Source: a virus
Length of the DNA: 47,892 nucleotides
Direction: 5' to 3' (one strand)
Virus record (IMG/VR): IMGVR_UViG_3300030098_006132
Location: 1-47,892 of that record
Both the position numbers and the translations under genes were made by a program. This document shows, piece by piece, positions 1,453-42,858 of the stretch (its first letter is position 1; every line of letters starts with the position of its first letter). The notes below the pieces were generated by a model. That model was not told where the DNA came from, made no database searches, and worked only from the letters and a program-made list of their open reading frames with translations.

Positions 1453-4400
1453 ATGGCAGGTAAAAAGATATCACAATTAACAGCATTAGGAAGCACTTAT
1501 GCAGCTACCGATTTATTTGAAATCTCTAAAGATATGGGTGGTGGCACTTATGCGTCACGAAAAATTACAGGCTCTGAGCTTACCTCATCTATAGGTGCGG
1601 GCACCGTAACCTCAGTAGGAGGTACGGGTACGGTAAATGGCTTAACCCTTACGGGCACCGTAACAACATCAGGTAATCTAACTCTTGGAGGAACACTAGC
1701 AATTAACAATGGCGATTGGTCGGGTACAGACTTGAGTGTTGCCAATGGGGGAACGGGAGCGAGCACTTTAACGGCTAATGGTGTGTTGATAGGTAATGGC
1801 ACAAGCGCAATTACGGCTGTCGATATGAGCACTAAGGGCGACATACTTATAGGTGATGGAACAGGAAATCCACAGATGCTAAGTGTAGGAAGTGATACTT
1901 ATGTTCTTACTGCCGATAGTACAGAAGCAACAGGCGTTAAATGGGCAGCTGCAGGTGGCGGTGGTGCTACAGACTTAAATGGCTTAACAGATGCCGAGAT
2001 AGTAGCAAGCTCAGGAGGCTCGGCTTTACAATACAATATATTTTTAACTAATGGCACAAGTGCAGGTGCGGCAACTCAGCATGGCACATTAAGTGATGCA
2101 AGAGCTAATTTAGCTATCGGTCCAAATGCTTTGGCATCATTAACTCAAGGAGACTACAACATAGCTATTGGTTATCAAACTTTAGATGCTATTACAACAG
2201 GATTATCAAATATAGCCATTGGATATGCGGCTGGAAGTACTTTGTCAGATACAAGTGCCAATGTACATATAGGTTATGCTTGTGGAATTTCTTCTACGTC
2301 TGCTGGAAGTGTTGGAATAGGGTATGATGCTATACGTTCTTCGCATAGTGGTGTAGATTGTGTGGCGATAGGTAAAAATGCAGGATATACTATGGCTGCG
2401 GCAAATGATAATACTCTTATTGGCATGGATGCTGGTAAGCTTATTTCAAGCGGTGATGGAAATACTACATTAGGCTTTGAAGCAGGAGATACAATTAGTA
2501 CAGGAAGTAATAACACTATATTAGGAGTAAGTGCAGATGCGGCTGCAACTGCAAATTACCAGATTGCTATTGGTGGTGGAATGGCTACAACTCAGGCTAG
2601 TTCATTAGCACTAGGAGAAAGTGGCAAGATGTTGTTACATGGAGAATTTTCAACAGCGGGAGAAACAAGTTTAGGTATAAATTTAGGAAATACTTGGACA
2701 GCACCACAAGCAACACTTCATGTTAAAGCAGCCGATGATGACATAAATACTATTGCTTTCTTAATACAAGATAATGCTGATAGAGTAATGACGCGTTTTT
2801 ATGATAATGGAGAAACCATTCATATAGGAAGAAATGCGGGATATACTGACCCTGATACTTTAAATATATATCTAGGTAGTAGTGCAGGATTTTATCCAAC
2901 TGGTGCAAATAATATAGCAATAGGAACAAATGCTCTAGCTGGAGCTTCGGGTGCTGGTGCAAGTGGCAACAATGTCGCAATAGGTTGGAACGCCATGAAA
3001 GACAATACTGATTCAAGAAGAAATGTTTGTATTGGCTATGATTCAGGTAGAAATATGGAAACGTCTGATGATAATATTTGTTTAGGCTATCAAGCTGGAG
3101 ACAACTTAACTACTGGCGACAATAATATAATTATAGGTGTAGGTGTTGATGCTAGTTCTGCTAGTGTGTCTAATGAGTTAAGAATAGGGCATGATGCAGT
3201 CATTCCTATTTCAGCAGACCTTTCTTCAGGGGCGGTAACTATTAATGGTGCTTATACTCTACCTACGGCAGTAACAGGCTCTAATGACTATGTATTAACA
3301 GCACAGACTGATGGTACTACTGCATGGGCAGCCGCTTCAGGAGGAGGTGCAAGTGCGTTAGGAGATTTAAGTGATTGTACAACTCCCGCTACTGACAATT
3401 ATGGTATTGGCACAAATGCTATTGACTCTATTACAACGGGGGATTATAATATTGGCATAGGGTTAGATGCTGGTACGGCAATTACAACATCAGCTATGAA
3501 TGTTTGTATCGGTAGAGGTGCTGGTGCTAAAATTTCTACGGGAACTGGAAGAAATGTTTGTATTGGAGGTTATGATGCTGGTGGAGAAATAACCACACAA
3601 ACTGACAATGTGTGTATAGGTTATGAAGCGGGTGCAGCTTTAACATCTTCTAATAATGTTGCTATTGGCTATGGAGCGGGAAAAGCTAACTCAACAGGTG
3701 GCTGTAATACTTTTGTGGGTAACAATGCTGGTATTGGCGCAACGGGTCAGCAAAATGTGGCAATAGGATATTTAGCAGCTAATAGTGCTAGTTTTAGCGG
3801 GAGTTACAATGTTGTTTTGGGTAGGTCAGAAGATTTGACAAGTGGTGCTGGTAATACAATACTAGGAGTATCCTATAGTGTTGCTAATATTACTACAGGT
3901 AATTACAATACAATAGTAGGTCATCAAGCACTTGGTGCGCCAACCGTTTCTAATCAAATAGCAATAGGTTACAAAGCAGAAGCTACGGCACAATATGCTA
4001 TTGCCATTGGAGATGATGTTTCGGCAGCAGGGAATGATGTTGTAATAGGAAGAAGCGGTAACACTATAACGTGTGATTTTGATACCGATGGGACATGGAC
4101 ACAAAGTTCTGATGAAAGAAAAAAGAATGTTATTGGAGCTTCTACTTTGGGGCTAGACTTTATAAGTGCTTTAACGCCTAAAACATATACATGGAAGCCT
4201 GCTGAAGACTATCCTGAAGCGTGGGGTTATTTCCATTATAATGACCAAGGTGAGAAAGTCTACGACCAAATGAATACTACGACTGTAATGTATGGACTTA
4301 TAGCCCAAGAGGTAAAGGCGGCTCTTGATGCAGCAGGGGTGAGTGATTTTAATGGATGGTCAGAAACACCTGAAGGAGAGCAACAAATATCAAAAACAAT

Positions 4401-4491
4401 GTTTGTTATTCCATTAATATCAGCAGTAAAAGAGTTAAAATCTCAAATTGATTCATTAACGGCACGACTTGAGGCATTAGAAAACGCATAA
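1453..4491 (+). CDS. Tail fibre with YadA-like repeats and S74 self-cleaving chaperone
   Basis: This 1,012-residue protein has a clear fibre build. Residues 1-42 form an anchor-type module (KKISQLTALGSTYAATDLFE) shared with proteins at 6487 and 24063. Residues 50-190 are Gly/Thr-rich shaft (NGGTGASTL, VLIGNGTSAI). Three blocks of short repeats of the NIAIGYxAG kind follow (about 219-365, 459-590, 650-870), like the head of YadA-type trimeric adhesins. The C-terminus is a peptidase S74 intramolecular chaperone starting around SSDERKKN (885-892). In this family the chaperone trimerises the fibre and cuts itself off just before a serine using a Ser/Lys pair; S886 and K890/K891 fit, which would release about 127 residues. 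The last 25 residues form a coiled coil. The role is host recognition. Confidence 0.9.
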   Translation: MAGKKISQLTALGSTYAATDLFEISKDMGGGTYASRKITGSELTSSIGAGTVTSVGGTGTVNGLTLTGTVTTSGNLTLGGTLAINNGDWSGTDLSVANGGTGASTLTANGVLIGNGTSAITAVDMSTKGDILIGDGTGNPQMLSVGSDTYVLTADSTEATGVKWAAAGGGGATDLNGLTDAEIVASSGGSALQYNIFLTNGTSAGAATQHGTLSDARANLAIGPNALASLTQGDYNIAIGYQTLDAITTGLSNIAIGYAAGSTLSDTSANVHIGYACGISSTSAGSVGIGYDAIRSSHSGVDCVAIGKNAGYTMAAANDNTLIGMDAGKLISSGDGNTTLGFEAGDTISTGSNNTILGVSADAAATANYQIAIGGGMATTQASSLALGESGKMLLHGEFSTAGETSLGINLGNTWTAPQATLHVKAADDDINTIAFLIQDNADRVMTRFYDNGETIHIGRNAGYTDPDTLNIYLGSSAGFYPTGANNIAIGTNALAGASGAGASGNNVAIGWNAMKDNTDSRRNVCIGYDSGRNMETSDDNICLGYQAGDNLTTGDNNIIIGVGVDASSASVSNELRIGHDAVIPISADLSSGAVTINGAYTLPTAVTGSNDYVLTAQTDGTTAWAAASGGGASALGDLSDCTTPATDNYGIGTNAIDSITTGDYNIGIGLDAGTAITTSAMNVCIGRGAGAKISTGTGRNVCIGGYDAGGEITTQTDNVCIGYEAGAALTSSNNVAIGYGAGKANSTGGCNTFVGNNAGIGATGQQNVAIGYLAANSASFSGSYNVVLGRSEDLTSGAGNTILGVSYSVANITTGNYNTIVGHQALGAPTVSNQIAIGYKAEATAQYAIAIGDDVSAAGNDVVIGRSGNTITCDFDTDGTWTQSSDERKKNVIGASTLGLDFISALTPKTYTWKPAEDYPEAWGYFHYNDQGEKVYDQMNTTTVMYGLIAQEVKAALDAAGVSDFNGWSETPEGEQQISKTMFVIPLISAVKELKSQIDSLTARLEALENA

Positions 4492-4514: not shown

Positions 4515-4835
4515 ATGGCATTAGAAATTTCAAAATCAGACGAGGCAAAGTTAACTATCTCAGGCACAAGCATTGAGCTAGATAGTATATACGCAAGAAT
4601 CTCTTTATCGGCAGCAGCTAATGGTGTGAATATGCAAATGGGAATGTACTACTACGAGAACGCAGCAACATTTGAAGCAGGAGGTGGAGTATTAAACATT
4701 GAAGAGATGAAAGCTGTTTATCATGGACAAGCTGACATTGAACAAGGACAGACGCAAACTATCTTACTTGCTTCTGAGAAAGTAAAAGAAGATTTAGAGG
4801 CACAAGGATATACTGTCTCTATCGTAGAGTTATAA
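4515..4835 (+). CDS. Conserved-type small phage protein behind the tail fibre
   Basis: The gene encodes 106 residues beginning MALEISKSDEAKLTISGTSI. It has no signal peptide, membrane helix or catalytic motif. The sequence alternates short beta-type stretches (ELDSIYARISLSAAANGV, MQMGMYYYENAATF) and ends with a helix and the strand YTVSIVEL. Its place directly behind the fibre gene suggests a fibre-associated or baseplate-type structural role, but this rests only on neighbourhood. Its TAA overlaps the ATG of the spanin-like gene by one base. Confidence 0.65.
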   Translation: MALEISKSDEAKLTISGTSIELDSIYARISLSAAANGVNMQMGMYYYENAATFEAGGGVLNIEEMKAVYHGQADIEQGQTQTILLASEKVKEDLEAQGYTVSIVEL

Positions 4836-5068
4836 TGAAACAGATAAAGCTTGACGTACAATATCTAGGAACTATTGGGGTGTTTGTGTGCACCCTGGTA
4901 GGGTTCTATTATACTACTACCTATAGATTGGATGCCCTAGAAAAAAAAGTCACAGAGCTTGAGGGCAATAATGAGGCGGTGATTAGATTGGAGGAGCGAT
5001 TAAAAAATGTACAAACCAAGACCGATGAGATATATCAGCATATTATTGAGTTTATTAGCCACGAGTAG
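4835..5068 (+). CDS. Inner-membrane spanin-like protein (i-spanin candidate)
   Basis: The 77-residue protein has a short basic N-terminus (MKQIKLD), one membrane helix at about residues 9-28 (YLGTIGVFVCTLVGFYY), and then a charged coiled coil to the C-terminus (LDALEKKVTELE, RLEERLKNVQ). That is the build of an i-spanin: N-in, with a periplasmic coiled coil. A lipoprotein gene starts inside its 3' end in another frame (overlap 5007-5068), and an endolysin follows. This matches the overlapping Rz/Rz1 arrangement that spans the envelope at the last lysis step. A holin-like role cannot be excluded from sequence alone. Confidence 0.6.
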   Translation: MKQIKLDVQYLGTIGVFVCTLVGFYYTTTYRLDALEKKVTELEGNNEAVIRLEERLKNVQTKTDEIYQHIIEFISHE

Positions 5069-5243
5069 TTGTAGCGTTGATGCTCCTTCTGCTGACGAGC
5101 CAATGCGAGATACGGTGGTTATCGAATATCCCACCACAAAAGATACTCTTATAGTTTTAGATACCGCTCAGGCAGTAAAAAAAAATGCCAAAAATCTGTG
5201 GACTCCCAAGTGCGTAGCTTACGGCAAATGGAGAACAAGCTAG
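5007..5243 (+). CDS. Lipoprotein overlapping the i-spanin candidate (o-spanin candidate); possible -1 frameshift
   Basis: The frame-0 product has 78 residues. Residues 1-22 form a lipoprotein signal: basic start (MYKPRPMR), hydrophobic core (YISILLSLLA) and lipobox-like TSSC with Cys22, so the mature protein should sit in the outer membrane. An alternative start is the ATG at 5025. The first 62 bases overlap the i-spanin candidate in a different frame, as in Rz/Rz1 pairs. After nine A's at 5177-5185, frame 0 runs only 19 more unremarkable residues. The -1 frame continues to a TAG at 5309-5311 and encodes a basic, heptad-like helix (SLRQMENKLDRLKRKLKER). The full functional protein may therefore be about 101 residues, made by slippage, or the homopolymer may be miscounted. 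Confidence 0.65.
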   Translation: MYKPRPMRYISILLSLLATSSCSVDAPSADEPMRDTVVIEYPTTKDTLIVLDTAQAVKKNAKNLWTPKCVAYGKWRTS

Positions 5244-5373
5244 ACCGCCTAAAACGTAAACTTAAAGAACGAAAGCAACGCAGAAACAAAAACCGAAGAC
5301 ATAGAGAATAGTGTTTATTTTGCACGGACATATAAAAAGCATTATCGGCGAGATGATGTTAAAAGTGAAATCA

Positions 5374-5985
5374 ATGAAGAAAAGCAAATATACGTGGCTT
5401 CTGGACCCAGGACATGGAGGCATGATAGATGGAGAATACCAAACAGCGGGAAAGCGTAGCCCAGAGTTTGAGTTTGGTCAATATTTTGAGGGCGTAGGCA
5501 ACAGAGAGATAGTAAAAAAAATGCTAGCTCAATGCAAAGCTTTAGGCATAGACGCAATAAATATTGCTGATTCTGAAGAAGACATCCCTTTAGGAGAAAG
5601 GGTAAGAATGGCTAACAACCTTCATAGGCACAAAAAAAATTGCATCTATGTTTCTATGCACAGCGATGCGTTTTCTGACCCTAGAGCTCATGGATATAGC
5701 ATATATACTTCGGTAGGTGAAACCTCTAGCGATGCTATAGCTAGTATGTTTTTAAATACCATGAAAGACTATTTTCCAGACCATAAATTGAGACATGATA
5801 ATACCGATGGTGATGAGGATAAAGAGGCACATTTTTATGTCCTTAAAAAGACTCATTGTCCTGCTATACTTATAGAAAATTTCTTTTATACAAATCCCAA
5901 AGAGTGTCAGCTACTTCTTAATGAGTCCTTTCAAGATAAGATTGTAGCATGCCACATGGATAGCATCAAGAGATTAGAAAGATAA
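5374..5985 (+). CDS. Endolysin, N-acetylmuramoyl-L-alanine amidase (Amidase_3)
   Basis: The enzyme cuts the bond between MurNAc and L-Ala in peptidoglycan. Counted from the ATG at 5374 (203 residues), the zinc-site residues are visible: H14 in LLDPGHGG, E45 in GNREIV, H96 in VSMHSDAF, and the catalytic E168 in ILIENFFYTN. This is the Amidase_3 pattern. No signal peptide or extra binding domain is seen, so export probably depends on a holin. The frame is open upstream, with a GTG at 5311 and ATGs at 5353 and 5356. I chose 5374 because the catalytic core starts eight residues later and an A-rich leader precedes it. It follows the spanin-like pair and precedes two holin-like genes. Confidence 0.9.
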   Translation: MKKSKYTWLLDPGHGGMIDGEYQTAGKRSPEFEFGQYFEGVGNREIVKKMLAQCKALGIDAINIADSEEDIPLGERVRMANNLHRHKKNCIYVSMHSDAFSDPRAHGYSIYTSVGETSSDAIASMFLNTMKDYFPDHKLRHDNTDGDEDKEAHFYVLKKTHCPAILIENFFYTNPKECQLLLNESFQDKIVACHMDSIKRLER

Positions 5986-16240: not shown

Positions 16241-16270
16241 AAGCACTCCAATATGGGGTGCTTTTTTTTT
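16241..16270 (+). terminator. Rho-independent terminator upstream of the moron-like gene
   Basis: A 9-bp stem with one G-T pair (AAGCACTCC 16241-16249 / GGGGTGCTT 16255-16263) and loop AATAT is followed by nine T's. It comes 21 bases after the stop of the 248-residue gene and is fused to a TATCTTTG promoter box starting at 16272. The same design recurs at 16665-16704. Confidence 0.85.
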
Positions 16271-29145: not shown

Positions 29146-32100
29146 ATGAATGAAGAGGTAATAAAAGATTTGTATAACAAAGCAAAAGATAAAGGCTACA
29201 CTAAGTCTATGGATGCCTTTACTACTCTCTTGCAAAGCAATGAAGATGTTCAAAACGATATGTTTTCTTATGTTCAAGGAAAAGGATATAAAAAAGACAT
29301 CAACTCTTTTCACGAATTAATAGGTGTAAAAAAAAAAGAAACTGGGGCATCGGCTGGTCCAATGGTGGAAGACGCTACTATATCGGAAGACGCAAAAGTG
29401 GAAACCATTCCGCCTGGGGATTCTTCAGTTTCGGATAAAGGCGATAGCTCCAAAGTAAAACATGGCATTGCAAAAGTGGAGTCTTTATACAAAGGAAGCC
29501 CTTTTAAAGATAACCCTTATGCAGCTACTAACCCAAATAGTAGTGCGGCAGGGAAGTACCAAATATTATGGGATGAGCATAATAAAAAGATTACCCAAGT
29601 TACAGGGGTAAAAACAAAAGAAGAGTTTCTCAAAAATCCCGAAGCACAAGAAAAGTTTATGGATTGGTGGGTGCCTAATGTTTTAGAACCCGACTCTTTA
29701 AAGTTAAAAAAAGCCCTACCCGAACAAACAAAAAATTTAAGTGATGATGACCTTTTGGCGCTAGTACATTTTCAGGGACTCAAACGAGCTAAAAAGTTTT
29801 TAGAAGAAGGGTCTATGGCGGTAGCTGATGACCAAAACATTACTGTAGATGAATACCTAGAGAAATTTAGGAAAGGCACATTAGACTATGCTCCCGAAGC
29901 ACAAAAGGAATCTCCCGAACAGGAGCAACGCAGCTTGGAATATGAGAAGTTTCGAGGCTCTAAGCCTGTGACTGCCGAGCAGATGGAGGGTATAGTAAAA
30001 GAAGCCAAACAAGATATGGGATGGGTTGACCCTCTTGAACTTCCCAACACCTTTTTTGACATGATTCCAGATGAGGACACATGGAGTAAAACACAAGTAG
30101 CGTTGACACAAGCCTATGCCGACCTTAAAGACAGCATTAGTGAGGAAGATGACAAAACTAAGGGCACATTAATGGGGCGCGCATTGGAATTTGTAGAAGA
30201 CTTCTTACCAAAAACAGATAAAGAAATAGCTGCTAAGACTACCTACGATAGGTTGAAAAGCGAGGGTAAGGACCCTAAAACAATGTCACCTGAAGTGTTT
30301 GCTCAAGAGGTATTTAACACTCTAAGGCAGGAGGCTATTACAAGGAGAGAAGAGTACAATCAGGAAGAATACCTTAGCGCCTTAGAAGATGATGACGAAG
30401 GAGATATTAAAAAAGACTCTTTAGTGGAACAAAACCTCAAGGAATCTAAGAATTTGTCTATAGCAATAAAGCGCGACCTTGTAGAGCGGGCTAGTATAGA
30501 AGCCGCATATAAAGAAAACCTAAGTGTAGGTAAAGGGCTTGAAAAACAAATGGAAGCTGCCGATGGAGAGGATAGACTTCTTATCGCTGAGCAATATGCT
30601 CAGGTAATGGCGCAAGCAAAAAGGGATTATGATGCTGCCGTAAAAATTACCAAAAAGATAAATGAGAATACCAAAGACCTTCAGAGCTTTGAGACAGAGG
30701 CAGACCTGTTAAAACGAAACTATGACCACCTGATAAATAAAGGGGCGCAGTTAGGGTCGTCTATATTAAAGATAGGTCTTACTGGCGCTAAAGCTATTAA
30801 AGACGTAGGGGTAGCCATACCTATAGTAGGTCTTTTTGGAGACGTTCCTGTAGCTATGGCTCGCTATGGGGTAGAGCAGATAGAGGCAGGGTTTGGCATA
30901 GACATGGACATGGCCTTAAAAGCTATAAGCAAAGTAGAGGCAGGGTCTCAAAAACTAGAAGATAAGCTTGATGCTGCCGATAAGTGGGTGAACGAGAATA
31001 TGGTAGATAATATGAGGAAAGCTAGGCAGCTTGATGATTTAAGCTCATGGTCCGATTATGGGCAGTGGGCGGGTGATGTTTTAGCCACCAATATTAGTCA
31101 AGTAGCAATAGTTGCCTTGACAGGACCTGCAGGATTAGGAATATTATCGGCATCAGCCTATGGAGGAAAGCTTCAAGGCATGGAAGAGGAGCTGAAGCAG
31201 ATGGGGATATCTCACACTAAAATGCTAGAGCAGCTAGAGGGCATGGAGGAAGGCCCTGCTCGCCAAGCGTTAGAAGAAAAGATAAAAGAAAATCAAGTAG
31301 ACATAGAGGGTCACAACTTTGTACAGATGAGGGTAGCGTCTGCATTAGTAGCAGCGGGAGAATTTGCGTCAGAGAGAGTTACCTTGGGAATAATTAAAAG
31401 GGCAATGCCTTCAACACGATTTGTGAGGGTAATGCAGAAATACAAAGAGGGCAATATTGGGGAGCAGATACGCTTAGGAGCCAAGGCTGCATATAAAGAA
31501 AACGGCAAAAAGCTTGGTCGCTGGATGTTAGCACCCGCCGAAGAGGGAGGCTCAGAGGTTTTTGCTCAGGTAGTAGAAAACCTTGCCGACAAATATGTGA
31601 TGAATAAAGATGTAGGCATCTTTGACCACATCAATGAAGCCTTTTGGTCGGGAGCGCTGATTGGTGGCACCATAAACACTACAGGGTTAGTAGCAGGAGC
31701 GATAGCACAAAACACCCTTAGACAGGATAAGAAAACTATTGCCAACAACCTCCTTACTATAGAGAAATATGCTAAGCAGATAGAGGCTATAAACAACAGC
31801 TCTGCCGTGATGGATAAAAAGTCACAGACAGCACCGCTATATGAGGCGGCGCTAAACCTAGAGATAGAGAATGGGCTTCTTATAAGCAAGGGCATAGGGA
31901 TAGCTAAAAGGCTTACTCTCTCCGAGATGCAGCAGATAGGGAAAATAGACTCCGAATTTGGGCAGCTCGTAAAAAAATATAACGATGTAAAAAACAGCAC
32001 CGTACTTGACGATGGGGTAAAGAAAGCCCTGATAAAACAATACCAAGCGCAGTATAATCAGCTGGTAACACAAAAAGATAATTTGCTGACTAAGGGCGAA

Positions 32101-35100
32101 TCACAGGACCCTAGATATATTCTTAATGAACAGGAGGTCAGCAAGGAAGAGTTGCAGGCATATATAGCCGATGAGGCAAACCTGCAAAAGCTAGCCGAAG
32201 GGAAAGCAAGCGTAAGGATAGCTAACGACACATCCTTAGAAAATGAATTTGTTAAAAAAATAAAACCAATACAAGATGCCATTCAAAAGCCAAGCACAGA
32301 GGAGATGGATGTACGCCAACGAGCCAGAGATGGCGAAGAGGTGGGAGTCCGAGACACCAAAGAACCAGACGTTACCGAAGAGGTTGTGGTCGAAGTACAA
32401 GAACAAGATGTCCAACAGAAAGAAAAAGTAGATAAGACTGAAGAGTACCTTTCAAGAGAAGGGGGATTTCAAAATGTTTCTGCTAGGGTAGCAAAAAAAG
32501 AAAAAATCAATGAGAAAGAAGTAGACAGCGCCATTGATGAAGCCTACAACCTATTAGATGAGATAGAAAAAGACACCGATATATCTAAAGAAGATAAGGC
32601 AGCGCTTACAGAAATTATTGAAGAAGAGATAACAAAACTGGAAAACTATGAACTTATTACAGAAACTCAAACTCGCAAGATTGCCGAAGCAAAAACAGTA
32701 CGAGTTCCTAAAAAGGCTAAAGGAAAAACAGCAGAAGAAAAACAATTCGAAGGAAAGAAAGCAGACTACTCCGACAAGCAAGGTGGAGGCGGTAGAGGAA
32801 CAATAGTTCTTGTAGAGCGACCTGATGGCAAAGAATACTATGTCTTAGAGGGTGCTAAGCGGAATGTGTTGGGAGCACGCCCTACTGTGTCTTTTGTATT
32901 AGGAGAGAAAGGTAAGGTATTCCAAAATGCTACCATCAACTACAACGAAAACAATGAGCCTGTATCTATTACTACCCAAGAGAAAGGTGGTAAGCAGGTA
33001 ACAATAAAAGACCCTGAGATTGCCAAACAAGTATTTATAGAGCAAACAAAAGATGAGGACTTCGACCAGGAGTTCTTTGAAGAGACATACATAGAGTTTG
33101 TGGGTGAGGAAGATGTGGAGGTTTTAAAAACCGAACCTAGAAAAGCTAAGAAGGCAGAGCCTGTGGCTAAAGCGGAGCCTAAGAAAGCTGAGCCTAAAAA
33201 GGCAGAGCCTGCAAAACCTGTAGCTAAAGCAGAACCTAAGAAAGTAACAGAAGAAATAAAACAAAAGTTTAAAGAAGAAATAAACTCCCCTAAACTAAGA
33301 AGCACAAAGGGAGCCATCGAAGACATGGTTCGGTTTTTAAGGGATGAACTTGGGTTAGATGTAAATATGGGAGGGAAAGGGAAAGCTGTTTATGACGGAG
33401 CTAATTTTAATTTTATAATAGACGGAGTTGAATTTAGTGTACAAGGTACGGGCAATATTTTAGGTGGAGGGTTTACATCCTTGGATATTACGCTAGACGA
33501 AATATTAGAAGCCAAAGAAAAAGCTCAAGGGCCTGTTCAGTTTAGGAAAAAGCCTCAATTTAAAACATTAAACATCCCTAAGCGAGGGGTTAAAGACGAG
33601 AAGGGGACAATAGAAAGGCTGTCAGAAAGGTATCCCGATGCAGAGGCGTTTGGAAATGCGCTAATTCCTTTTTTAGAGCAGGAGTTTGATAAGACTATTA
33701 ACAGCAAAATTTTAGAACAAGGCTTAAATAAATTACAAGAGAAAGGTGCGCCCCCTCAAATGATAAAGCAGGTCAAGTCTATGCTGCAAAAGAAACAACA
33801 ACAGCAAGAAGGTAAAGAAATTGAGCGCATAGAGACTGCGGAGACCAATCAAGCTGAAGCTGATTTAATAGAGAAAATAGATAATAGGAAGGTTGAGCTT
33901 CAAGAAGAGCATAAGAAAGAGGTGGTCTCTCAGGTTCAAGCAGATAATATAAAACCTAGAACTAAAATATTAGGAATAGGTAAAGCTACAGGAGCTAAAG
34001 CTAAAGCGTTGCCTGAAATGACATATACTTTTAGCATTAATCAAGCCACGGAAGGAATTAGAAGCCTAGAGGGGAGACGAGGGGTGTCGGTTAGCGGTGA
34101 GGGCGCTAATAAAACTATTTCTATTAAAGGCAAAGACCTCGTTAGATATGGCTTAGCACAACCCATATCCAAGGCAGAAAGACTGAAAGCACACGGAATT
34201 ATAGATAATGTATCACAATATTTTGGCAAGCAAGCCTATAACGAAATGTCTCCTGAAAGGAAAAAGTTTTTAGGAATGTTCCGCAAAGGTAAAGCCGAAG
34301 AGGTGGAAGCCGAAGTTGTCGATGAGGTTGCTGTTATTGCCGAAGAGATGAATAAGATGGAGGGACTGGTTATTGAAGATGTACCCTTTGAGGCACTCAA
34401 GGGTAAAGGGAAAATGGATACCAAAACCTTTAAGAGAAAAGGAGTAGCAAAAAAACCTAAGATAGTAGGCATAGCAGACTTTGCTAACATGCCTGTGATG
34501 GTGACGATATCTGATGAGCTTACCACTGGTGAAGTTACAAACCCACAGACAGGGGAAGTTATTGACAACCTCCGAGGGGGAATACTAGGCCCCTATACCG
34601 AAGGCATGGAAGATGTGGCGTGGTCTTATACTGGGATTAGCCCAACACAGGAGACATGGAATACAGCACTAAAGGTATATGAAAAAAATAAAGCGCTATT
34701 TGATAAGCTATGGAAAGAGGGTAAGCTTCCCGACCAACATATTCCCGTAGCCGTTGTTAAGATGGGTAAAGATGCTATGAAGTCTAACGAAGCTATGGTA
34801 CGTCAGGTGGTGCAGAACCTAGCGACCTTCCCTGCTAAAAATAAAGCGGCAGCATATAAGGCGCTTATGCCAGATATAAAGAAGCTTAGGAAGACAATAG
34901 ACAATAGGATAAAGAAAAGAGAAGAAGCGGGAAAGGAAGGTAAAAGAGCTGACAAAAATTTACTCAAGGATTATAACAATATCATTGACTTTCTTGAGAA
35001 ACATAAAACATTGGATGCTGTATTAGAAAATCTAACCGACCTCAAGATAAGAGAAAGGCCATTATTGATTAACAGGTTTACCACAGGAAAAATGAGCTTG

Positions 35101-38100
35101 GTCCCTGCCAAAGATTCTGCGCTAAGAGCACAATCAGCTGCCGCCAAAGCTTTAGTGAAAGGACTTCCTCAGTCCGAGATAAAGAAAATACATTTAGGGC
35201 ATCTTGCACAAACTCTCGCTGACCCTGCTCTTAAAAATATTCCCGACAGGCACATTGTTGCTATGGTAGGCATTGACATATCCTCAGAAGGACCTGTACG
35301 TACTGATGTTCACCCCAACTATCCGTGGGTGCTTAAAGGACAGGGGCTAGGAATTATGGGCGAGACCGTGCATCTAGCTCAGGCTATGCCTGCGGCTTAT
35401 GCCAATATCATCGACAAGCTGCTGAAGGCGCAAGCTCAGGGGAAGGAGGTTGCCTTAGGAAACATTATACGAGACGCACTTCCTAGTGCTTTAAATAATG
35501 ACATATTAAAGGGAAGGCCTCTCACCACTCGTGAAGACGATGCTGTGAGAGTGATAGCTGCCTTGCAACTATCATTCCCAGACTCGCAGTTCTTTACAGA
35601 CCAAGCGACATGGGAGGAAATCATGGCTTCGGATAATGTGCAGAAAAGAATATCTGAGGGAGATGTAGTCTATGGGTTTACCGTAGATGGAGACGTATAT
35701 CTCAATCCTGAGTTTATGGATTTCAACACACCTATCCACGAGGCGGGACACCTATGGGTAGACTTCATAGAGCAAAACAACCAGAAGTTATTCCAGAAAG
35801 GGATAGAGCTTGTAGAGGGAACAAAAGAGTTGAAGGAAGCTATAGCTGAGTATGGCGACAACATCTTTGCGAGAAAGGAAGCTTTGGCTATTCTTATTGG
35901 TAATAAGGGAGAAACTATCGTCAACGCCTCGCAGCAGAGCAAGTTTGAAAACTGGCTTATGGCTGTAATGAAATACATACAGCAGAAGTTTCCATCACTA
36001 CGGAAGCTTACTCCTCAGCAGGTGTCTGAGCTTACGCTACAGGAGTTTGTTGGCGGTGCCATTAAAGAAGTGCTGGGAGGTAAACCTATAAGCCCCACAA
36101 AGGTAGTATCTAAAAAGGGAGAGGTGCAAGCCAGAAAATCCCCGCAAGCAGAAAAGGAAGCTTTGTTGAAAGAGATTAAATCGCGTAGGAATGTACTCAA
36201 TGCGCGCTATATAAAAGACCCTAAGGGTAAAGACAAGGTTAAGAAATCTAAGATAACAAAAGCAATAGCCGAAGAGATAGATGCCATAAATGAAAAATAT
36301 CGTGGCAAGTGGAGTGATTTGGGAGTGGTAGAGCTGGAAGCTATACGAGATAAATTAATTGAATTAGAAAGGAAAGGAAAAGAAGCTCGTAGAGAAGAAA
36401 CAAAAAAAATTGAAGAGGAAAGGAAATCACTAAGGGCTGAGGCATCGACAATTATAGGTAAAGATAAAAAAGGTATAGGCTCGACTATAGTTATAGAAAG
36501 TGCTCGCTCCATAGAGCAAGAGCCTGCGAGGGAGCTGTATCGCCAGTCTACAAAAGGTAGCACCTTTATTGTTGATGGGGTTTCAAGAACTAAGTCGCAA
36601 TTTAAAGAAGACCTTAAAAAGGGATTGCCGCAAGGGACCGTAGTACAGTATGTGCCAGGTGCCTTAAATGTGGATGCGGTAGAGGCACAAAAGAAATTTA
36701 GACTGCGCTTTTTTAGGCATGACGTAAAAGACCTATTTACATTAATACATGACCTTTTTGGGAAAGGGTATAAAGGCATGAACTTTTTTAGAAAGAACTT
36801 CATAAAGCCTATGCTGACTGCTGAGAAAATATATCGCTCTTTATCTGACAACTTCAACACTGAGTTCTTAGCAATGAAGTACAAAGCCCTATATCCTGAA
36901 GGTAAATCGCTGCTGTCGCGTTTTAAAAATAGGATAAATATGAGTGCCAAGACAGGAATAAAAGTTACCACAGATTTTGGTACCAAAGTAGATATAACCA
37001 ATGACGAAGCAGTGCTGCTGTATAACTACATAAAAAACCCTAAGCTTATTGATAAAATGAGAGAAGGGGGGATTAAAGAAGGTGCTATTACTTTTGAGAT
37101 TATGAAAAAAATAGTAGACTATGTAAACGCAAACCCTAAGCTAAAAAATTATGCTGATGGCATAGTAAAGGTCTATGAAAAATATAAAGAGCCTGTAGAG
37201 ACGGCCCTAGACAAAGAGGGCTACACTACTTTTGGGTATCCCACATACACCACTTACGATGAGTATGTAGAAAAGAAGACTAAGGATTATATGAAAAAAG
37301 GAAGGTCAGAAAGTGATGCCCTAGACATGGCTATTAAAGATGCCGATGAAACCTTTAGCCTGCTTATAGACATTTATGGTAGCATAGATAATATTCCTAG
37401 ACTGATTCCTTACACTCCTACAAAGGTCGATAGCTTTGCTGATGATATGAGCGTAGACACCTTGATTGACCCTAAAGCTGACATTAATGCCATCACGGTA
37501 ATGACGGGGAATTTGGTGGCAAGGAAAGCGGGTGGTGCGTTGAAGTGGAGAGATATATCTCCCCAGGAGTTAGCCCTAAATTATTCTAGGGGAGCACTAA
37601 GAGCAGCGGCATACTTGAAGTTTTTTAAAGATAGCAATGCTATTTTTAATAAAACCAATATGGATAAGATAGAAGCATTAAAAGGTAAAGGCTTTGTTAA
37701 AGAGTTAAAACAAGCTATAGCTAGAGTAATTACAGGACAGAGGAGAGCAGGCATGGGAGAGATGTCAGGGGCTGTTAAATTTTTATATGATTATGTTAAT
37801 ATGTCTCAAGGACTTATAATGTTCTTAAATAAAAAATCTGCCCTCTTGCAGCAGCTATCAATATTAAACTTTGCCCTACACACCAACCCTGTAGATTATG
37901 TAGCAGGGACAGCTTCTTTAGCCACAAAGAAAGAGATGGCAAAAACGCTACAGGAAATATGGAATAGCAAATATATGGTAGGCAGAAGGAAAGGTGCGGC
38001 GGGAGATATCTCTATGGCTGAAGTCATGGATATGAAAGGCTCGTGGTTTAAAAATATAATAAAGGTACCCCTTGAAAAAGGATATTCCTTCACACAATGG

Positions 38101-39084
38101 GGAGATTCTATAGCTATAGCAATAGGAGGGCTGCCATATTACGCTGCTAGAAAAAGAGTTTATGAGAAGGAGGGTCTTAGTGAGGCTGAAGCTAAAGAAA
38201 AAGCCATGCTGGATTTTGAAGAAGTGTCAGAAGGGACCCAGCAGTCTGCTATTATGGCTCGTATCAGCTCACAGCAGGTGACAGCTTTAGGGAGAACGAT
38301 ATTGACATTTGCTAACATTCCTATGCAATATAATAGGTTAATGTATCAGTCGTTTTTAGATATAAAAGATGGCAGAGGAAATCTTGCTACCAACATATCC
38401 AAGATAGTGTATTATGGTGCGGTGCAGAACTTCCTTTTCTCTGCGCTACAGCAGGGATTGTTTTCTTTATTCTGGGATGATGATGATGAGGAACAGGAGA
38501 TAGGAAAGACAACAAGGACTATAAACTCTATGGCTAACACGTTATTAAGAGGTACAGGAGTGTATGGAGCTATTGTCGCAGGCGTAAAAGATGCCGCCAT
38601 GAATTGGCTTATGAAAGAAAAGCCTGATTTTTGGAAAGATGGAGTTATGTCTATTGCCTCTATTGCTCCTTCGGTAGGATATAAAGTTCATCAGGCACGT
38701 TCAGCATATAAAGAAATAGAGTTTGCCAAAGAGGAGGATTGGGACCAATTTTCAAACCTAGAAATTGACGAAGAGTTTTTAGACAATCCCTATGTGCGCG
38801 GTATTTCTAAAAGTATTTCTACAGGATTAAATACGCCTATAGAAAGAATATTCCAGCATATAGATGATGGGGTGGATGCGGCAAACGAAGAATATGATGG
38901 TTTATTGAGAATATTAAGAGCGGCTGGATGGAGCCGATACGCTTTGGGCATGGATGCAAAATGGGAAGAAGAAAAAGAGGTAGAAGGATATATGAGAAAA
39001 TCCTTTAGAGCAGTCCCTCCTCCACCTCCTCCACCTCCTCCACCTCGCAGAGCAGCTCCTCGCAGAGCAGCTCCTCGCAGATAA
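29146..39084 (+). CDS. Giant polyvalent ejection protein: transglycosylase-like and zincin-like segments
   Basis: The product has 3,312 residues. Residues 1-65 hold two related repeats (DLYNKAKDKGYTKSMDAFTT and MFSYVQGKGYKKDINSFHEL). Residues about 104-240 look like a lysozyme/transglycosylase domain (HGIAKVESLYKG with candidate E112, SSAAGKYQILWDEHNKKI). Hydrophobic segments occur near 650-690 and 820-850. A Lys/Ala/Glu/Pro repeat lies around 1333-1366. A zinc-peptidase motif HEAGH is at 2198-2202 in TPIHEAGHLWVDF. Long helices fill much of the rest. The C-terminal part (GGLPYYAARKRVYEKEG) is helical, and the end is ten prolines plus RRAAP repeats. It takes the gp16 position of T7-like phages. 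The protein is probably injected: it may cut the wall, cross the membrane, and act inside the cell. Confidence 0.8.
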   Translation: MNEEVIKDLYNKAKDKGYTKSMDAFTTLLQSNEDVQNDMFSYVQGKGYKKDINSFHELIGVKKKETGASAGPMVEDATISEDAKVETIPPGDSSVSDKGDSSKVKHGIAKVESLYKGSPFKDNPYAATNPNSSAAGKYQILWDEHNKKITQVTGVKTKEEFLKNPEAQEKFMDWWVPNVLEPDSLKLKKALPEQTKNLSDDDLLALVHFQGLKRAKKFLEEGSMAVADDQNITVDEYLEKFRKGTLDYAPEAQKESPEQEQRSLEYEKFRGSKPVTAEQMEGIVKEAKQDMGWVDPLELPNTFFDMIPDEDTWSKTQVALTQAYADLKDSISEEDDKTKGTLMGRALEFVEDFLPKTDKEIAAKTTYDRLKSEGKDPKTMSPEVFAQEVFNTLRQEAITRREEYNQEEYLSALEDDDEGDIKKDSLVEQNLKESKNLSIAIKRDLVERASIEAAYKENLSVGKGLEKQMEAADGEDRLLIAEQYAQVMAQAKRDYDAAVKITKKINENTKDLQSFETEADLLKRNYDHLINKGAQLGSSILKIGLTGAKAIKDVGVAIPIVGLFGDVPVAMARYGVEQIEAGFGIDMDMALKAISKVEAGSQKLEDKLDAADKWVNENMVDNMRKARQLDDLSSWSDYGQWAGDVLATNISQVAIVALTGPAGLGILSASAYGGKLQGMEEELKQMGISHTKMLEQLEGMEEGPARQALEEKIKENQVDIEGHNFVQMRVASALVAAGEFASERVTLGIIKRAMPSTRFVRVMQKYKEGNIGEQIRLGAKAAYKENGKKLGRWMLAPAEEGGSEVFAQVVENLADKYVMNKDVGIFDHINEAFWSGALIGGTINTTGLVAGAIAQNTLRQDKKTIANNLLTIEKYAKQIEAINNSSAVMDKKSQTAPLYEAALNLEIENGLLISKGIGIAKRLTLSEMQQIGKIDSEFGQLVKKYNDVKNSTVLDDGVKKALIKQYQAQYNQLVTQKDNLLTKGESQDPRYILNEQEVSKEELQAYIADEANLQKLAEGKASVRIANDTSLENEFVKKIKPIQDAIQKPSTEEMDVRQRARDGEEVGVRDTKEPDVTEEVVVEVQEQDVQQKEKVDKTEEYLSREGGFQNVSARVAKKEKINEKEVDSAIDEAYNLLDEIEKDTDISKEDKAALTEIIEEEITKLENYELITETQTRKIAEAKTVRVPKKAKGKTAEEKQFEGKKADYSDKQGGGGRGTIVLVERPDGKEYYVLEGAKRNVLGARPTVSFVLGEKGKVFQNATINYNENNEPVSITTQEKGGKQVTIKDPEIAKQVFIEQTKDEDFDQEFFEETYIEFVGEEDVEVLKTEPRKAKKAEPVAKAEPKKAEPKKAEPAKPVAKAEPKKVTEEIKQKFKEEINSPKLRSTKGAIEDMVRFLRDELGLDVNMGGKGKAVYDGANFNFIIDGVEFSVQGTGNILGGGFTSLDITLDEILEAKEKAQGPVQFRKKPQFKTLNIPKRGVKDEKGTIERLSERYPDAEAFGNALIPFLEQEFDKTINSKILEQGLNKLQEKGAPPQMIKQVKSMLQKKQQQQEGKEIERIETAETNQAEADLIEKIDNRKVELQEEHKKEVVSQVQADNIKPRTKILGIGKATGAKAKALPEMTYTFSINQATEGIRSLEGRRGVSVSGEGANKTISIKGKDLVRYGLAQPISKAERLKAHGIIDNVSQYFGKQAYNEMSPERKKFLGMFRKGKAEEVEAEVVDEVAVIAEEMNKMEGLVIEDVPFEALKGKGKMDTKTFKRKGVAKKPKIVGIADFANMPVMVTISDELTTGEVTNPQTGEVIDNLRGGILGPYTEGMEDVAWSYTGISPTQETWNTALKVYEKNKALFDKLWKEGKLPDQHIPVAVVKMGKDAMKSNEAMVRQVVQNLATFPAKNKAAAYKALMPDIKKLRKTIDNRIKKREEAGKEGKRADKNLLKDYNNIIDFLEKHKTLDAVLENLTDLKIRERPLLINRFTTGKMSLVPAKDSALRAQSAAAKALVKGLPQSEIKKIHLGHLAQTLADPALKNIPDRHIVAMVGIDISSEGPVRTDVHPNYPWVLKGQGLGIMGETVHLAQAMPAAYANIIDKLLKAQAQGKEVALGNIIRDALPSALNNDILKGRPLTTREDDAVRVIAALQLSFPDSQFFTDQATWEEIMASDNVQKRISEGDVVYGFTVDGDVYLNPEFMDFNTPIHEAGHLWVDFIEQNNQKLFQKGIELVEGTKELKEAIAEYGDNIFARKEALAILIGNKGETIVNASQQSKFENWLMAVMKYIQQKFPSLRKLTPQQVSELTLQEFVGGAIKEVLGGKPISPTKVVSKKGEVQARKSPQAEKEALLKEIKSRRNVLNARYIKDPKGKDKVKKSKITKAIAEEIDAINEKYRGKWSDLGVVELEAIRDKLIELERKGKEARREETKKIEEERKSLRAEASTIIGKDKKGIGSTIVIESARSIEQEPARELYRQSTKGSTFIVDGVSRTKSQFKEDLKKGLPQGTVVQYVPGALNVDAVEAQKKFRLRFFRHDVKDLFTLIHDLFGKGYKGMNFFRKNFIKPMLTAEKIYRSLSDNFNTEFLAMKYKALYPEGKSLLSRFKNRINMSAKTGIKVTTDFGTKVDITNDEAVLLYNYIKNPKLIDKMREGGIKEGAITFEIMKKIVDYVNANPKLKNYADGIVKVYEKYKEPVETALDKEGYTTFGYPTYTTYDEYVEKKTKDYMKKGRSESDALDMAIKDADETFSLLIDIYGSIDNIPRLIPYTPTKVDSFADDMSVDTLIDPKADINAITVMTGNLVARKAGGALKWRDISPQELALNYSRGALRAAAYLKFFKDSNAIFNKTNMDKIEALKGKGFVKELKQAIARVITGQRRAGMGEMSGAVKFLYDYVNMSQGLIMFLNKKSALLQQLSILNFALHTNPVDYVAGTASLATKKEMAKTLQEIWNSKYMVGRRKGAAGDISMAEVMDMKGSWFKNIIKVPLEKGYSFTQWGDSIAIAIGGLPYYAARKRVYEKEGLSEAEAKEKAMLDFEEVSEGTQQSAIMARISSQQVTALGRTILTFANIPMQYNRLMYQSFLDIKDGRGNLATNISKIVYYGAVQNFLFSALQQGLFSLFWDDDDEEQEIGKTTRTINSMANTLLRGTGVYGAIVAGVKDAAMNWLMKEKPDFWKDGVMSIASIAPSVGYKVHQARSAYKEIEFAKEEDWDQFSNLEIDEEFLDNPYVRGISKSISTGLNTPIERIFQHIDDGVDAANEEYDGLLRILRAAGWSRYALGMDAKWEEEKEVEGYMRKSFRAVPPPPPPPPPPRRAAPRRAAPRR
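33141..33243 (+). repeat. Lys-Ala-Glu-Pro coding repeat in the giant gene
   Basis: The sequence encodes about 35 residues built from AKAEPKK and KAEP units (for example AKAEPKKAEPKKAEPAKP). Such KAEP tracts behave as stiff, extended linkers (TonB is a known case) and separate the helical middle of the giant protein from the following globular parts. Confidence 0.8.
39013..39081 (+). repeat. Poly-proline and RRAAP repeat tail
   Basis: The last 23 codons of the giant gene encode ten prolines (CCT CCT CCA triplet-repeats, three and a third units) followed by RRAAP RRAAP RR. Copies are near-identical at the DNA level, so the length could change by slippage. Confidence 0.9.
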
Positions 39085-42612: not shown

Positions 42613-42858
42613 TTACTCGCCTTTGTAGATTTCGGTTGTGATTCCGTGTTTTTCAAGCTCATCCATTCTATATTTTTGTAAGCTACTAAGACGGCCTTTA
42701 GAAGTTTTTACCTCACAAAATACTACACCACAATTCGGGGGTATAGCAATAAGGTCAGGTATTCCGTTCTTGTTCGTCTTCATTAATTTAATAACATAAT
42801 AGCCTTCTTCTTCTAGTTGCTTAATTTTTTTTTGTTGAATTTTTCCTTCTTCAGTCAT
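42613..42858 (-). CDS. VRR-NUC family nuclease
   Basis: An 81-residue stand-alone VRR-NUC domain. The catalytic residues of this PD-(D/E)XK clan member are visible: G32-D35 in NGIPDLIAI, E49 and K51 in VFCEVKTSKG, and Q61 in LSSLQ. Stand-alone VRR-NUC proteins of phages are Holliday-junction resolvase-like and act on branched DNA. Its ATG shares one base with the helicase stop (TGATG), so the two are co-translated and probably work together on replication or recombination intermediates. Confidence 0.9.
   Translation of the reverse strand: MTEEGKIQQKKIKQLEEEGYYVIKLMKTNKNGIPDLIAIPPNCGVVFCEVKTSKGRLSSLQKYRMDELEKHGITTEIYKGE

Follow-up and report, generated by a model that had tools for sequence, protein, structure and literature searches.

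A candidate slip site in a phage o-spanin gene that may yield short and long forms of the lipoprotein

Organization of the lysis locus

The window – the whole stretch of 47,892 nucleotides analysed here, taken from a virus record (IMGVR_UViG_3300030098_006132) – carries on its plus strand an i-spanin-like gene, a lipoprotein gene containing a run of nine A's, and an endolysin gene:

4835–5068, plus strand: i-spanin-like gene (77 aa), an ORF with an N-terminal transmembrane helix and an acidic periplasmic coiled coil, partly overlapping the lipoprotein gene
5025–5243, plus strand: putative short o-spanin form in frame 0 (signal peptide, lipobox Cys, linker and alternative tail KKNAKNLWTPKCVAYGKWRTS); the ORF is open from 5007
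5177–5185, plus strand: candidate slip site, nine A's, read in frame 0 as GTA AAA AAA AAT and holding A_AAA_AAA
5175–5209, plus strand: 35-base block GTAAAAAAAAATGCCAAAAATCTGTGGACTCCCAA, invariant in an alignment of seven close members
5183–5311, plus strand: predicted long-form tail, encoded in the -1 frame (KCQKSVDSQVRSLRQMENKLDRLKRKLKERKQRRNKNRRHRE), a basic helix; L009, L030, L032 and L035 carry the same segment fused in a single frame
5311–5985, plus strand: endolysin (N-acetylmuramoyl-L-alanine amidase) with a GTG start (Amidase_3, 1.8e-24; PHROG endolysin, 4.8e-27)

The positions given in the first-pass annotation for the A-run, for the frame-0 stop (TAG, 5241–5243) and for the -1 frame stop (TAG, 5309–5311) match the sequence. 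The second of these stops shares one base with the endolysin start (junction TAGTG), the position of which is backed by the homologue in L050. The lipoprotein gene had been taken to begin at 5007, where its frame opens with an ATG; the real start is probably ATG 5025 (residue 7), because this is the only methionine kept among relatives, most of which have no ATG upstream of its equivalent.

The proposal that the lipoprotein is an o-spanin fits its architecture, on which the identification rests, profile matches being weak. An invariant S-C follows the hydrophobic stretch of the signal peptide in all members, and the gene overlaps the i-spanin-like gene in the +1 register (5025–5068), with the amidase following at 5311. 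The i-spanin-like protein combines an N-terminal transmembrane helix (hydropathy peak 1.57, borderline) with a periplasmic coiled coil and has only weak PHROG matches, to holin and to Rz-like spanin (E 0.004); its gene is conserved next to every relative found. The layout resembles that of two-component spanins such as lambda Rz/Rz1, in which a lipoprotein gene lies over a transmembrane/coiled-coil i-spanin gene in the +1 register with the endolysin adjoining (PMC6139136). Slippage is not mentioned in that survey; the o-spanin described here would itself change frame and exist in two lengths.

The host is probably a flavobacterium, because the terminase is nearest to those of phages of Flavobacterium, Cellulophaga, Tenacibaculum and Maribacter. 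No comparable spanin was found in the inspected parts of the lysis regions of elemo phage and MW202828. The latter (MW202828.1, the nearest terminase relative, L052) has an annotation gap at 4038–4481 with an open frame that contains hydrophobic segments and has a holin-like look. Elsewhere in the window, oligo-T followed by TATCTTTG occurs at 16262, 16686 and further positions (four seen, about zero expected under a Markov model), an arrangement similar to the Bacteroidota -7 promoter element TAnnTTTG.

Recurrence of the A-run and of the tail among relatives

After the A-run the -1 frame is open for 41 codons, which by length alone is not remarkable: another run in the window, of seven A's, has a -1 frame of 57 codons. 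The slip site rises above chance because 12 further distinct sequences have kept it. With the short protein, the transframe protein and the i-spanin as queries, 13 contigs with the site were recovered beyond the window (L001–L007, L015, L023, L024, L049, L050 and L051), from many different metagenomes; L004 and L005 are identical at the site, leaving 12 distinct relatives, or 13 distinct sequences with the window. The run consists of nine A's, or ten in L023 and L024, always in the same phase and never fewer than nine, while the surrounding sequence in L015, L023, L049, L050 and L051 differs from that of the close members. All 13 distinct members thus have a homopolymer of the kind expected at a transcriptional slippage site (about nine or more A or T, kept regardless of its flanks), and the basic helical tail is present in the -1 frame of all 13 other contigs. 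The ATG formed where the A-run meets TGCC (5185–5187) was considered as a functional element in its own right and rejected, since the +1 frame that it opens is just 10 codons long and L015, L023 and L049–L051 lack it.

In four distinct relatives (L009, L030, L032 together with L033/L034, and the distant L035) the long protein – anchor, linker and tail – is encoded in a single frame lacking an A-run, and because of this the long form is, judged by these homologues, the real o-spanin. The view that the -1 frame is real coding sequence with a basic helix is thereby upheld, the same tail recurring in 12 distinct relatives and fused in four more, and none of the relatives found stops at the frame-0 stop without the tail. 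The tree of relatives is poorly resolved and compatible with one or with several gains or losses of the slip site. No homologues were found among isolated phages or bacterial genomes.

The first-pass annotation had left a choice between programmed slippage and a run one base short in the assembly, with the gene in a single frame. Long homopolymers are error-prone with some sequencing methods, yet 13 further contigs, drawn from different metagenomes and with differing flanks, also have nine or ten A's in phase and with the same consequence, and both frames are constrained (below). The recurrence of the run with its -1 tail, together with the long protein shared by the fused relatives, leaves an assembly error with next to no credibility and favors programmed slippage. 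Hardly more plausible is that the -1 tail constitutes a separate small gene: a GTG or ATG does lie within it at the conserved V/M of SQ[VM], but the tail is carried on the lipoprotein in the fused homologues and conservation begins at the A-run, upstream of that start codon.

The layout of the locus is also set by the long form, because the next gene starts at the long-form stop rather than at the short-form stop. Its start lies between -38 and +2 bases from the long-form stop in each of the 13 distinct slip members; the short-form stop lies 53–122 bases ahead of the long-form stop and never coincides with the start of the next gene. The identity of this next gene is swapped among L001, L004, L015, L049 and L002 (Amidase_3, Amidase_2 and several proteins with no assignment), and the stop/start junction is retained. 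The most distant of the fused o-spanins, that of L035, is followed downstream by a CrAss_Ring_1 tail protein (L035: 5506–6273; Pfam, 1.7e-25), which provides a link to crAss-like phages.

An AlphaFold model of L009, one of the fused homologues (built on a four-sequence alignment; mean pLDDT 68), shows a signal helix followed by a disordered linker and a single helix (residues 53 to 94, mostly pLDDT > 90); the point at which slip members switch frame maps to the start of this helix. The -1 tail carries a charge of +14.8 and the periplasmic part of the i-spanin -4.4, and the basic helix of the long form may pair with the acidic coiled coil of this i-spanin, whose gene lies immediately upstream.

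Constraint on both reading frames

In the overlap the third base of each -1 codon is the second base of a frame-0 codon, so that silent third-base changes in the -1 frame alter frame 0. Among the seven close members, codon identity per column at positions with the same -1 amino acid is 0.85 in the overlap vs. 0.38 past the frame-0 stop (p about 1e-5); seven divergent members give 0.71 vs. 0.36 (p 8e-4). The p values come from a permutation test with columns as units; kinship is common to both parts, and the contrast is therefore internal. In addition, the frame-0 tails of divergent members are open and share an aromatic-[TS]-x-K-[CW] pattern (WTPKC, FSPKC, YTIKC, YTSKC and YTSKW) that random synonymous codons produce at that place in 0.3–14% of cases per sequence; as the pattern was picked post hoc and the sequences are related by descent, it is supporting evidence only. 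The same frame in two fused homologues meets a stop after five codons.

Because the -1 synonymous codons are frozen in the overlap and the aromatic-[TS]-x-K-C pattern is shared, the frame-0 tail is, on this comparative evidence, under constraint and not junk; the 19 residues first described as undistinguished are conserved. A constraint on the RNA rather than on the frame-0 protein might also have frozen the block, and the two cannot be fully separated. The same data bear on the idea that the long form alone matters, the A-run being a tolerated indel rescued by slippage and the short form waste. Fused relatives do encode the long form only, and A-rich genomes offer known examples of rescue by slippage (PMC5009743, PMC4256274); given the strong depletion of silent -1 changes, a shared pattern improbable under random synonymous codons, and the early stop in the matching frame of fused homologues, we regard this idea as unlikely.

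Slippage and its possible role in lysis

Together these data point, with a probability of roughly 0.78, to an o-spanin gene in which a programmed slip site gives rise to a short and a long lipoprotein. Reading straight through the nine A's would give the short lipoprotein, consisting of an outer-membrane anchor, a flexible linker and an alternative tail of about 20 residues with a Cys; a slip equivalent to -1 (through an additional A in the transcript or a one-base backward step of the ribosome) would give the long one. Both proteins would then be produced, and the slip would be mainly the work of RNA polymerase. Slippage by RNA polymerase, which is efficient at nine A's (PMC5009743), is moderately favored, though unproved, over ribosomal -1 frameshifting, because the run is never shorter than nine and no conserved RNA structure accompanies it. 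Single-sequence z-scores 3' of the run are near 0 except in L023 (-2.2) and the consensus is -1.3 kcal/mol (pseudoknots being outside the model), so that the downstream stem-loop of a ribosomal -1 frameshift site was not found; nor was a conserved Shine-Dalgarno-like stretch seen by eye ahead of the run. Ribosomes could make the same two products, and this is the less probable route, although a substantial contender: the heptamer A_AAA_AAA or A_AAA_AAG is present in the right phase in all members, and -1 shifting at such heptamers is established in E. coli (PMC4066793). Apart from the missing structure and Shine-Dalgarno-like stretch, what speaks against ribosomes is that seven A's would be enough for them, yet all members have nine or ten.

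A counterpoint to slippage is provided by a run of ten A's (29328–29337) tolerated in an apparently ordinary gene of the same phage. It lies 61 codons into an ORF of 3312 aa (29146–39084), and slipped frames end after 32 (-1) or 39 (+1) codons; the phage either tolerates long A-runs or makes some truncated product. A further run of nine A's (42825–42833, nine T's on the plus strand) lies close to the 5' end of a minus-strand ORF of 81 aa, where slipped frames close immediately.

Slippage at poly-A as a source of two lengths of an envelope protein is already known. In tssM1 of Citrobacter rodentium, transcriptional slippage at 11 A's yields 20–25% long form, and both forms are needed (PMC4256274). 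As here, the poly-A lies near the end of the shorter frame and slippage leads to a longer envelope-spanning protein (PMC4256274); tssM1, however, belongs to Type VI secretion, with its run sporadic in the family, whereas the present case concerns a phage lysis lipoprotein with nine or ten A's in 13 distinct sequences and constraint on both frames. In Shigella spa13, slippage likewise adds a C-terminal extension, the coding end of which runs into the next gene and influences how that gene is expressed (PMC5009743); spa13 is a Type III secretion component rather than a lysis gene, and coupling in the phage is suggested by gene layout only. The lambda tail chaperones gpG/gpGT offer a phage precedent in which a -1 product gains a C-terminal domain and the ratio matters, although by ribosomal frameshifting and in a tail gene, not in lysis (PMC4256274, PMC5009743). 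No slippage in a spanin is reported in the literature covered (which leaves out most subscription papers) on spanin frameshifting or slippage and programmed frameshifting in lysis cassettes.

Phages time lysis by means of dual-start holins and antiholins. As the slipped product ends exactly at the next lysis gene, slippage may couple the level of o-spanin to translation of the endolysin. The slip ratio could, tentatively and with the odds against it, be a further built-in regulator of lysis: the short form, anchored in the same membrane with its own Cys but lacking the pairing helix, would restrain or titrate the long form, while the stop/start overlap would let slipped messages promote translation of the endolysin as well. 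If this is true, outer-membrane rupture would be tied to wall digestion.

Automatic gene calling registers the short protein only. Slip-type and fused relatives form a natural set for testing the role of the short form. If the slip site is what it appears to be, programmed slippage would reach the last step of lysis, and phages of flavobacteria would supply the new case.
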